DNA from: Bacteroidales bacterium
Lineage (GTDB): Bacteria > Bacteroidota > Bacteroidia > Bacteroidales > WCHB1-69
Length of the DNA stretch: 35,245 nucleotides
Reading direction: 5' to 3'
Assembly: GCA_012522535.1 (NCBI GenBank)
Contig: JAAYKF010000036.1
Span: forward strand, 1 to 35,245
Shown: positions 32,031-35,245 of the stretch, one piece after another
Layout: the number at the start of each line of letters is the position of its first letter
Numbering within the stretch: position 1 is the first letter of the stretch
Made by a program: the position numbers and the translations under genes
Notes under the pieces: generated by a model
What the model was told of the DNA's origin: nothing
What the model saw: only the letters and a program-made list of their open reading frames with translations
The model's database searches: none

Positions 32031-32063
32031 CAAAAATATCCACTTTTTACCACTTTTTACCAC
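32031..32063 (-). promoter_or_regulatory. mraZ promoter with three MraZ-type operator repeats
   Basis: On the minus strand three GTGG boxes start at 32063, 32053 and 32043, exactly 10 bases apart (two full GTGGTAAAAA units and a third GTGG). MraZ is known to bind direct repeats of TGGGN-like boxes with one-helical-turn spacing. TATTTTTG (32038-32031), a perfect TAnnTTTG -7 box, follows at once, so a bound repressor would cover the -33 region. The predicted transcript starts about 30 bases before the mraZ ATG. Confidence 0.75.
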
Positions 32064-32064
32064 T

Positions 32065-32179
32065 TGTTGATAACTTTTTTTACTCATTTGGACAAATAAA
32101 GTTACATTTTGGGGCAAAACAAATTATAACTATCTGATTTTCAATACAATAATTATTAACAACTGTTGATAACTTTTTT
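32065..32179. repeat. Two 16-base direct repeats TGTTGATAACTTTTTT
   Basis: The copies start at 32065 and 32164, 99 bases apart. TGTTGATAA is the complement of TTATCAACA, one base away from the classic DnaA box TTATCCACA. They may be DnaA or other regulator sites upstream of the dcw operon; function is not shown. Confidence 0.4.
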
Positions 32180-32527: not shown

Positions 32528-33622
32528 ATGAAACATTTATTCAAGATTCGATTTTCAACAAAATCGTCATTGCTACTTATTTTTGCATTATTAATTCTCA
32601 GTAGCGGCAACACTTTTGCTCAAATAGGCAAAAAAACAGACAAAAAAACCAATAGCCAAGAGCTTTCTAAAAAACCCAATAAAGAGACTAGAAAAGGGGT
32701 TAGAGAATCGGGCAAAACAACAAATATTGATAGTAGAAACAAAGAAGTTCCTAAAGAGATAAAGCCTGTCAACGAAGAAAAAATTGCCAGCAGGGAGGAA
32801 AAAACTACTACAGTTGAGAAAGAGGAGCCAAAATATCAAGAAATTATTGAGGAAAAGCCCAATGGAGTTATAAATTGGTCTGTTCAATATGTCGAAGCCA
32901 AAGGTATGTCAGTTATTGACACTGAAAGATTTAACAATCATGCCCAAGCCAAATTAATGGCCCGCAGAGGTGCCATTGTTGATGCCCAAAGAAATCTTTT
33001 AGAAATTGTTCAAGGAGTTAGAGTTGTGTCTGAAACAAAAGTTTCTGATATGATTACTGAAAGCGATTATGTTTTGACGCAAATTGACGGTGTAATTAAA
33101 AATGCCGAATTGGTGGGCGATGCGGTGGAAGTAGATGGCATTATGGAAGTTACAATGCGTGTTCCAATGTATAGTCGAAACGGCTTGGCATCAGCTATTT
33201 ATAGCGAAGTAGAGGGTCAAAGTAGAAAAGCTATGGGAGGTAAAAGTGAGATAAATTTTGCTGGCGACAACAATTCAGAAATTGACATAAGTTCCATTTC
33301 CGACTTAGTTTTCAACTTTAATGGCAAGGAATATAGTCCAAGTATGTTTCCCATAATTCTTGATGAAAATGACAATATTTTATTAGATTTCTCAAAATAT
33401 TACGACCCTAAAAGCGGAAAATTCCCCAAAATAGTTTCTGGTGCAAAGGAAATTATTGATGCCGTAGGCTCTAAAAAAGGAGCTCAAATAATTGATGTAA
33501 TTGAGTCATTTGACGGAAAAATAAAAATTGACAACAGCAAGATTAGTAAAAAAATCAACTGGCAAAAAATTGGAAAAGTTGCCACAACAATTGGCAAAGT
33601 TGTTGTGGCACTAATACTATAA
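32528..33622 (+). CDS. Exported LPP20-domain protein
   Basis: This 364-aa protein has a signal peptide (ending near NTFAQ, residues 28-32), a Lys/Glu-rich low-complexity linker (about 35-110) and an LPP20-like domain at about 115-215. That domain shows ARRGAIVDAQRNLLEIVQGV, the alternating TKVSDMITESDYVL and GVIKNAELVGDAV patterns seen in LPP20 lipoproteins and FlgP. There is no lipobox cysteine, so it is periplasmic or surface-associated rather than lipidated. The C-terminal 140 residues are unassigned and end in a hydrophobic stretch (GKVATTIGKVVVALIL) that might contact a membrane. It is followed after 18 bases by a FlgT-N-like gene. Confidence 0.7.
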   Translation: MKHLFKIRFSTKSSLLLIFALLILSSGNTFAQIGKKTDKKTNSQELSKKPNKETRKGVRESGKTTNIDSRNKEVPKEIKPVNEEKIASREEKTTTVEKEEPKYQEIIEEKPNGVINWSVQYVEAKGMSVIDTERFNNHAQAKLMARRGAIVDAQRNLLEIVQGVRVVSETKVSDMITESDYVLTQIDGVIKNAELVGDAVEVDGIMEVTMRVPMYSRNGLASAIYSEVEGQSRKAMGGKSEINFAGDNNSEIDISSISDLVFNFNGKEYSPSMFPIILDENDNILLDFSKYYDPKSGKFPKIVSGAKEIIDAVGSKKGAQIIDVIESFDGKIKIDNSKISKKINWQKIGKVATTIGKVVVALIL

Positions 33623-33640
33623 ACTACAAAAACGAAAATT

Positions 33641-34954
33641 ATGAAAAGAGTACTTTTAATATCAATATTTCTAACATTTGCTTTCACTTCGTGGGCTCAA
33701 GAAACCACCATAGTTGAAGCAAAAGGTGTTGGACTTAAACGCGAAGATGCCCTTCAGGATGCCTTGCGTAATGCCGTAGGACAAGCTGTGGGAATAACAG
33801 TTTCGTCTCAAACACAGGTTGAAAACTTTATGGTTTTAAGTGATGCTATATCCAGCAAAACAGAGGGTTATATTACCAATTATGAAATAATAAAGGAGAC
33901 CCCTTTTAAAGATAGATTTGAAATTGACATTAAAGCCAGCGTTAGCCTATCGCCTCTTAAAGCCGATGTTGACATGCTATCAAGAGCCATTGGAGGTGTT
34001 AGATTTTTGGCTATGTACGACCCCCGAAACGTTCCTGCCGACGAAATTGGAATGTACGATTTTGCCACCGAAAGAATTAATGAAGCATTGGCAAATAGAA
34101 AATATCGTTATATTGAAAAAAGTCGTTTCGATGCCCTAAATTATGAGGCAAAGGGAATGTTTCACGACGGATCGTCGGGCGAAGAGTCCTATGTTCAACA
34201 CATTGGTTTTAGAGCTGATGCACAGTTTATTATAAAACTTAATCGAATAACAGTTTCCAAGAGAAGTGAAGCCTTTGACACTCGCACCGCTTCTAAGGTT
34301 TTGATAGAGCTAAAAGCTTACGACAACTGTACTGCCGAAGGTTTGGGAACTACCCTTATTGAAAGCGACTGGGCAAGCGGTCGCGATGCAGAATCCACAC
34401 TATACTCCAGCATAGCCTCCACAATTGAAGAGAAAATTGATGAACTTTTCAAATTATACATCTCTTATATAGGCGACTGGGTAAATAATGGAACTCCTTA
34501 CGAACTAAGATTTTATGCCTCAGGCTCTTATAGAGATTTTAGAGATATTAGAAACAAACTAAAAGTTCATAAAGATTTTGGAGGACAGATGGAAATTGTT
34601 AGCTTTGACAATTACACTAAACTAAATTGCACCTTTAGTAAAAAACCCGACGACTTGGCTGATGCTATTTTGGATATTTCTGACGAAGTTCCATTTTTTA
34701 AAGAGAAAGAAATGGACGTAAGATTGATATTTGGTCGTCAAATATCTTTTGCACCCAGAAAAGAGAGTGTTCCAGAGTTGGATAAAATGAAAGAGGACTA
34801 TCAACGCGAACCTGCCCCTATTCCAGCGGAAGAAAAGCAGAAAATTACTACAGAAAAAACTATTAAAACTCCAGAACTTAAATCAAAAAATGAAACTAAA
34901 GAGTCTAACAAAAAAACAAGCAGAGGCTCAAAATCAAAAAAATCTAGAAGATAA
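33641..34954 (+). CDS. Exported FlgT-N/CsgG-like protein with basic tail
   Basis: This 437-aa protein has a signal peptide (MKRVLLISIFLTFAFTSWAQ). Residues 22-110 match the FlgT N-terminal pattern: VEAKGVGLKREDALQDALRN, then AVGQAVGITVSSQTQVEN and SKTEGYITNYEII. The middle region (about 125-280) has the CsgG-like phrase RYIEKSRFDALNYEAKGM, as in outer-membrane-associated CsgG/TolB-N folds. A further domain follows (290-370). The last 60 residues are a low-complexity Lys/Glu tail ending KSKKSRR. The FlgT name reflects domain resemblance only, since no flagellar gene is present. It probably forms an envelope complex with the LPP20-domain protein upstream. Confidence 0.65.
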   Translation: MKRVLLISIFLTFAFTSWAQETTIVEAKGVGLKREDALQDALRNAVGQAVGITVSSQTQVENFMVLSDAISSKTEGYITNYEIIKETPFKDRFEIDIKASVSLSPLKADVDMLSRAIGGVRFLAMYDPRNVPADEIGMYDFATERINEALANRKYRYIEKSRFDALNYEAKGMFHDGSSGEESYVQHIGFRADAQFIIKLNRITVSKRSEAFDTRTASKVLIELKAYDNCTAEGLGTTLIESDWASGRDAESTLYSSIASTIEEKIDELFKLYISYIGDWVNNGTPYELRFYASGSYRDFRDIRNKLKVHKDFGGQMEIVSFDNYTKLNCTFSKKPDDLADAILDISDEVPFFKEKEMDVRLIFGRQISFAPRKESVPELDKMKEDYQREPAPIPAEEKQKITTEKTIKTPELKSKNETKESNKKTSRGSKSKKSRR

Positions 34955-34972
34955 AATTTAAAACATTAAGAT

Positions 34973-35245
34973 ATGAAAAGAACATTATTAATAATAACAA
35001 TTGCACTTTTGGGTCTAAATGTGCAAGCACAAATTAAATCATCTCTTACAATTTTTAGTAAGAACGGTGAAAAATTCTGGATAGTTCGCAATGGCGTTAA
35101 GCAAAACAACGAGCCTCAAACATCTGTTACAATTAAAAATATAGAAGAGAAATCATTTAGAATAAAAGTTCTAATTGACGATGAAAAACTAACTTCCGTT
35201 GACAAGCTTATTTACACCGAAAATGTTGATGGTCAAATTTGTGAT
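34973..35245 (+). CDS. Exported protein, partial at window end
   Basis: The ATG at 34973 opens a frame running to the window edge (91 codons, no stop). It begins with a signal peptide (MKRTLLIITIALLGLNVQAQ) followed by SLTIFSKNGEKFWIVRNGVK and TSVTIKNIEEKSFRIKV. This N-terminal pattern, a short beta-rich domain starting with an F-S-x-x-G-E-x-F phrase, is common in exported Bacteroidota proteins of unknown role, some with DUF4476. It is the third gene of the operon, 18 bases after the FlgT-like gene. Function unknown. Confidence 0.7.
   Translation, partial: MKRTLLIITIALLGLNVQAQIKSSLTIFSKNGEKFWIVRNGVKQNNEPQTSVTIKNIEEKSFRIKVLIDDEKLTSVDKLIYTENVDGQICD

Follow-up and report, generated by a model that had tools for sequence, protein, structure and literature searches.

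An Operon for FlgP- and FlgT-Like Exported Proteins in Bacteroidota without a Detectable Flagellum: a Candidate Periplasmic Ring or Scaffold

Introduction

Accessory outer-membrane rings have usually been studied as add-ons to flagellar motors. Among the closest described systems, the H ring of Vibrio, a part of the sodium-driven polar flagellar motor, comprises FlgT, FlgP, and FlgO, and the Vibrio fischeri candidates for FlgP, FlgO, and FlgT are numbered consecutively, VF_1883-1885, in one study (PMC6375700). Campylobacter jejuni has FlgP in its basal disk (PDB 9hmf), and a further paper describes outer-membrane discs as modular structures that have evolved repeatedly (PMC5758724). Here, we describe three genes, g1, g2, and g3, at the end of contig JAAYKF010000036.1 of a Bacteroidales bacterium (assembly GCA_012522535.1); the whole stretch of 35,245 nucleotides that was analyzed is referred to as the window. 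By sequence comparison, g1 and g2 are related distantly to FlgP and FlgT and are not members by Pfam cut-offs. On balance, we favor the view that these genes form an operon encoding a periplasmic ring or scaffold of FlgP/FlgT-type parts, exported and probably associated with the outer membrane, in an organism without a detectable flagellum.

As in the Vibrio H ring, a FlgT-like and a FlgP-like protein are encoded together at this locus, a pairing that echoes the neighboring numbers VF_1883-1885 in V. fischeri, and g2 shares the order of an SHS2 domain followed by a CsgG-type middle domain. Six related loci have a small lipoprotein that is a loose counterpart of the third H-ring part; it is LpoB-like. 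Unlike the Vibrio system, however, the carriers here are without FlhA, and hence a flagellum was not detected; g1 and nearly all g2 proteins have no lipobox, both have additional C-terminal domains, and the third gene most often encodes a DUF4476 protein. Compared with C. jejuni FlgP, its best profile and fold match, g1 shares the SHS2 domain with its insert but is larger and nonlipidated; it also contains a charged linker and a further domain at the C terminus, and its gene lies together with that of a FlgT-like protein in organisms that have no detectable flagellum. The g2 middle domain has the same fold as the outer-membrane-associated oligomers PelC and CsgG, whereas the window g2 has no lipid anchor, its middle domain is preceded by an SHS2 domain and followed by a further domain, and no pel or csg genes were recognized beside g2 when its neighbors were read by eye. 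A likeness to LipL46 (NCBIfam NF033164; E value of 1.5e-5) is confined to the N-terminal SHS2-type region of g2 and scores 23.9 bits, far under the cut-off of 400. Our literature search found no account of this g1/g2 pair in Bacteroidota; in one paper flgP comes up solely for a Smithellaceae bin (PMC11225162), and in another FlgT appears only among the references (PMC9389320).

Results

All three genes are encoded on the + strand, their reading frames are separated from one another by 18 bases, and their N termini, read from the sequence, all resemble signal peptides ending in A-Q. The reading frames and these putative signal peptides agree with an earlier sequence-only reading of the window, which had described three adjacent exported genes with 18-base spacing. 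The contig terminates at position 35245, truncating g3, and for comparison the sequence beyond this point was replaced by related loci. The genes are as follows.

32528-33622, + strand: g1, exported LPP20/FlgP-type protein P0001, 364 amino acids (profile to solved FlgP chains, Foldseek)
33641-34954, + strand: g2, exported FlgT-like protein P0002, 437 amino acids (Foldseek to FlgT 3w1e and to 8z5n_0)
34973-35245, + strand: g3, 5' part (91 codons) of the gene for an exported DUF4476-family protein (relatives; open at the contig end)

The LPP20/FlgP relation of g1, which had been set beforehand as a test of the sequence-only reading, was recovered by profile search: among PDB chains, the g1 family profile matched C. 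jejuni FlgP (9hmf_C) with an E value of 8.9e-13 and four further FlgP-type chains with E values of 1.9e-8 to 1.9e-5. LPP20 itself was matched by 5 of 10 g1 members at an E value of 0.1 or below (best, 1.4e-5). The top Foldseek match of the g1 model was likewise a C. jejuni chain (9hmf_A; E value of 3.6e-3; template modeling [TM] score of 0.62 to the target); matches below rank 1 (E values of 0.5 or above) were set aside as noise from a low-confidence model. These matches indicate that the g1 SHS2 domain is homologous to that of the solved FlgP. The parts of g1 are as follows.

32624-32851 (approximate), + strand: charged low-complexity linker from the signal peptide to the SHS2 domain, poorly conserved in the alignment
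32879-33175, + strand: SHS2 (LPP20-like) domain, by profile and Pfam matches and aligned in 24 loci
33014-33112, + strand: insert between the SHS2 helix and the second strand, at the position of the FlgP ring-forming hairpin, by gapless FlgP alignment
33299-33619, + strand: conserved C-terminal domain, by alignment conservation, with a hydrophobic segment (IGK...), also conserved, at its end

The last of these was modeled with a predicted local distance difference test (pLDDT) score mostly below 50.

The model of g2 (mean pLDDT, 72.6; predicted TM-score, 0.62) contains SHS2, middle, and C-terminal domains, and a Foldseek search of the PDB with this model placed Vibrio FlgT (3w1e) at rank 1 with an E value of 3.2e-11. 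Rank 2 was a Vibrio-type LPHT ring chain, 8z5n_0 (E value of 3.5e-9), which we take to be the FlgT of that ring, and CsgG (4uv2; E value of 5.0e-6) followed, in line with the earlier remark that g2 is CsgG-like. The proposed FlgT_N relation also extends to the family: FlgT_N was matched by 10 of 11 g2 members and LPP20 by 8 of 11 (E values of 0.1 or below), and in one relative, L083, FlgT_N passed its cut-off with 30.3 bits. FlgT_M (PF16539) was unmatched in the window g2 in the Pfam search and was found in 2 of 11 members (best E value, 0.057); DUF6175 (PF19672) was also found in 2 of 11 (best, 4.2e-7). Weak Pfam matches of the window proteins to GRASP55_65, PARP, and others, as well as matches to PDB chains of ribosomal eL31 and of poxin, were taken as chance. 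The parts of g2 are as follows.

33704-33955, + strand: N domain, SHS2 (FlgT_N/LPP20-like), by FlgT_N in 10 of 11 members
33788-33868, + strand: insert between the SHS2 helix and the second strand, gapless with C. jejuni FlgP
33995-34489, + strand: middle domain, with the fold common to FlgT-M, PelC, CsgG, LptE, and TolB-N, by VIA-align
34490-34756, + strand: highly conserved C-terminal beta-alpha-beta-beta-alpha-beta domain, by model secondary structure and invariant columns
34796-34951, + strand: K/T/S-rich C-terminal tail, poorly conserved in the alignment

Structural alignment with VIA-align gave a Z score of 11.1 for g2 against 3w1e, with a root-mean-square deviation (rmsd) of 9.4 over 208 residues (model residues 4 to 259), and therefore the domain placement differs or is uncertain. 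PelC (5t10_C) tied with 3w1e at a Z score of 11.1 (rmsd of 3.0 over 123 residues), 8z5n_0 gave 11.0 (rmsd of 3.2 over 144), and CsgG gave about 10; because of these ties among 3w1e, PelC, and 8z5n_0, the middle domain is best described as a widely shared fold. Judged from the model, the resemblance of g2 to FlgT lies in the order of an SHS2 domain followed by a CsgG-type middle domain.

Since the g2 profile detects the window g1 (E value of 6.1e-5) and both families match 9hmf_C (E value of 2.6e-5 for the g2 profile against PDB chains), the N domains of g1 and g2 are homologous. In alignments to C. jejuni FlgP, the insert segment is gapless in both proteins, and it is kept in 24/24 g1 and 27/27 g2 sequences of a set of 27 loci (the window, 10 loci from a pattern scan, and 16 further full-length loci). 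A passage in a 2025 paper correlates the insert between the SHS2 helix and the second strand with ring formation (PMC12222027). Rings are thus plausible mainly because this FlgP-type insert is kept in both SHS2 domains, the correlation itself coming from one paper. The sequence-only reading had also pointed to long charged segments as a sign of assembly or wall binding; such segments do exist, as the N-terminal linker of g1 and the C-terminal tail of g2, but conservation is lowest there, and wall binding is unsupported.

The pair is rare. The pattern scan, which covered 84,980 species genomes and reaches close relatives only, yielded its 10 loci entirely from Bacteroidota-type metagenome-assembled genomes (MAGs), and g2 was found in 2 of 40 genomes of a relatives search, the window genome counted. 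Across a phylum sample of 395 genomes, in which at most four candidates per genome were scored so that weak members may be missed, the g2 profile and the g1 profile each matched in 8, and each was full-length in the window genome only. In an order sample of 247 genomes, g2-profile matches occurred in 17 (full-length in 11, across seven families) and g1-profile matches in 12 (full-length in 10). In the order of genome G442, 11 of 194 genomes matched, 10 of them full-length, including four profile-building genomes. Matches confined to about 110 N-terminal residues were excluded from g2 (six order-sample genomes, seven phylum-sample genomes, and G854). Because the phylum matches outside the window genome are short or weak, we regard the pair as rare and patchy, which does not favor the earlier idea that it is ancestral. 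Genome G453, which already holds a complete trio, carries a further full-length g1 on a separate contig (G453:C62:4028-5080).

As the sequence-only reading had anticipated, the two genes co-occur. All 10 genomes with full-length g1 in the order sample fall among the 11 with full-length g2, an overlap with a hypergeometric probability of 5.7e-17 if genomes were independent, which related genomes are not. Moreover, g1 lies beside g2 in 24 of the 27 loci, being missing at L010, L073, and L081; the contig of L081 begins just ahead of g2, and the nearest relatives of L010, L009 and L014, keep g1. Four loci, L089 to L092, were left out of this set for having N-terminal matches only (L091 had been fetched for a g1-type match). 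At L080, one of the 24, a further FlgT_N-like gene (L080:5011-5973) stands between g1 and g2; its protein is found by the g2 profile with an E value of 1.7e-16 and matches no Pfam family at an E value of 0.1 or below.

These data bear on the notion that g1 and g2 are unrelated exported proteins that share the common SHS2 and CsgG-type folds and became neighbors by chance or hitch-hiking. The window proteins are indeed sub-threshold in Pfam, and SHS2 domains are found in unrelated proteins. Adjacency amid differing neighborhoods, the matched presence and absence of g1 and g2 over 247 genomes, the FlgT structures at ranks 1 and 2 among PDB chains for g2, and a g2-g3 fusion in L083 all speak against such an accident, which the co-occurrence data already make unlikely and to which we assign very little probability. 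Recurrence of the pair in distantly related bacteria without a detectable flagellum suggests a separate ring-like envelope structure.

FlhA (PF00771), the sole flagellar marker searched, was found in 0 of 27 genomes with full-length g2 (0/11 and 0/16), some of the searched genomes being incomplete MAGs, and it was absent from the window genome, which is 96% complete. By this single marker, the earlier expectation that the organism has no flagellum agrees with the data; a control search was positive in 4 of 14 named genomes, including Escherichia coli and Bacillus subtilis. SprA (PF14349) was present in 11/11 first carriers and in 233 of 247 order genomes, including all 11 with full-length g2. 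Alternatively, then, the proteins might form a scaffold around the type IX secretion/gliding apparatus or around an outer-membrane exporter of polysaccharide or protein, much as the H ring surrounds the L ring. The SprA-positive carriers fit this proposal, as does the proximity of the g2 middle domain to PelC and CsgG, which are parts of outer-membrane export channels. However, SprA occurs in almost every genome of the order and is thus uninformative about a link to type IX secretion, and likewise about the secretion-linked complex suggested in the sequence-only reading; most SprA genomes are without the operon (233/247 for SprA versus 11/247 for full-length g2), and no type IX secretion gene was recognized beside the operon in loci read by eye. 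We consider such a scaffold improbable.

The third slot is occupied less uniformly than the first two: g3 stands there in 18 of 27 loci (fused in one), a small lipoprotein, g4, replaces it in six, and neither is present in three (L078, L080, and L085, the L080 contig ending shortly after g2). The window g3 is 64% identical to that of L005, and it has no DUF4476 match because the 91-codon fragment is too short; in complete relatives the C-terminal end is formed by a DUF4476 domain, which matches 9 of 10 g3 members. In L083, g2 and g3 are fused in one 655-amino-acid frame (L083:6001-7968) in which FlgT_N and DUF4476 (61.2 bits) both score over their cut-offs. No locus has both g3 and g4, and in the tree the lipoprotein-bearing loci fall in two places, on long branches. 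LpoB was matched weakly in Pfam by 3 of 6 g4 members (best E value, 2e-5), and a g4 profile built from four members matched no LpoB, FlgO, or CsgG chain in the PDB; given these results, g4 was not equated with FlgO.

The LpoB likeness raises the alternative of a periplasmic complex that is not a ring, in which SHS2 and PelC/LpoB/TolB-like binding modules link the outer membrane or its lipoproteins to cell-wall synthesis. The middle-domain fold also occurs in LpoB and TolB, and a penicillin-binding protein is encoded two genes after the L008 copy. In the window, moreover, the trio is divergent from a putative mraZ/dcw-type (wall/division) cluster that begins 532 bases away. This wall-gene neighborhood is nevertheless not conserved, as the genes flanking the trio vary between loci, and the ring-correlated insert is kept in every copy. 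We regard a wall-linked complex of this kind as unlikely, if somewhat easier to envisage than a scaffold around a secretion system.

Three further observations concern the neighborhoods. In the window, three closely similar CCACTTTTTA-type units spaced about 10 bases apart (32040-32066) precede the divergent mraZ-like gene on its 5' side, and they resemble MraZ-type operator repeats. On the 3' side of g1, g2, and the lipoprotein gene at L079 (L079:57-3409) lie a DUF4384 protein (42.7 bits) and a caspase plus FGE-sulfatase protein; the DUF4384 protein, separate from the L079 lipoprotein, has a weak FlgO match (E value of 0.011). L089:1966-6443 holds two same-strand FlgT_N-like genes about 1.7 kb apart, one with Lcl_C (46.8 bits), which belong to a separate exported SHS2 family with no g1 recognized.

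Discussion

Several results weigh against interpreting this locus as a FlgP/FlgT-type ring or scaffold. In the Pfam searches, the window g1 scored 12.3 bits against LPP20 (PF02169; cut-off, 25.9), and the window g2 scored 21.1 bits against FlgT_N (PF16548; cut-off, 28.8) and a likewise sub-threshold 17.8 bits against LPP20. The g1 model is of low quality (mean pLDDT, 48.9), and the g2 insert has a pLDDT below 50 along most of its length. Whole-chain TM-scores of g2 against FlgT are low (0.29 to 0.32), and thus the g2 model does not reproduce the domain placement of FlgT; its middle-domain fold is found equally in PelC and in proteins such as LptE and TolB, for which ring formation is not known. 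The lipid anchor expected of FlgP-type proteins is missing as well: a pattern check found a lipobox in 0/24 g1 proteins (the L088 N terminus being read by eye), and none in the window g2 or in nearly all other g2 proteins. Among the loci, L010 (L010:7458-7977) has no adjoining g1 even though the contig there spans a whole chromosome, and g1 is likewise missing beside g2 at L073. Finally, in the passage cited above for the insert, the SHS2 fold is also ascribed to dodecin and Helicobacter pylori Lpp20, which are not ring builders (PMC12222027).

With these points taken into account, g1 and g2 most plausibly work in a FlgP/FlgT-like manner, by analogy with the described systems, as exported, ring- or scaffold-forming proteins near the outer membrane. 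From the combined evidence we infer ring formation, an outer-membrane location, and contact between g1 and g2. In this model, g1 would be secreted to the periplasm and polymerize via its SHS2 domain, and its inserted hairpin would make up the wall of the ring. g2 would then join or cap the g1 ring through its homologous SHS2 domain, and it may contact a partner by its PelC/CsgG/TolB-N-type middle domain together with the conserved C-terminal domain. The third gene would add a further contact or anchor, in most loci through the DUF4476 protein and elsewhere through the small LpoB-like lipoprotein. A more specific proposal, which we offer only tentatively and consider doubtful, is that flagellum-free Bacteroidota surround a channel for export or motility with an outer-membrane ring of their own, built from FlgP/FlgT-type proteins and a third protein specific to the lineage.

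If this proposal is true, H-ring and basal-disk parts would constitute a portable, flagellum-independent envelope module that was recruited by flagella or taken from them. The presence of the conserved pair in bacteria without a detectable flagellum offers a way to test the ring parts as an independent envelope module, and it would suggest that Bacteroidota have a periplasmic structure yet to be described.

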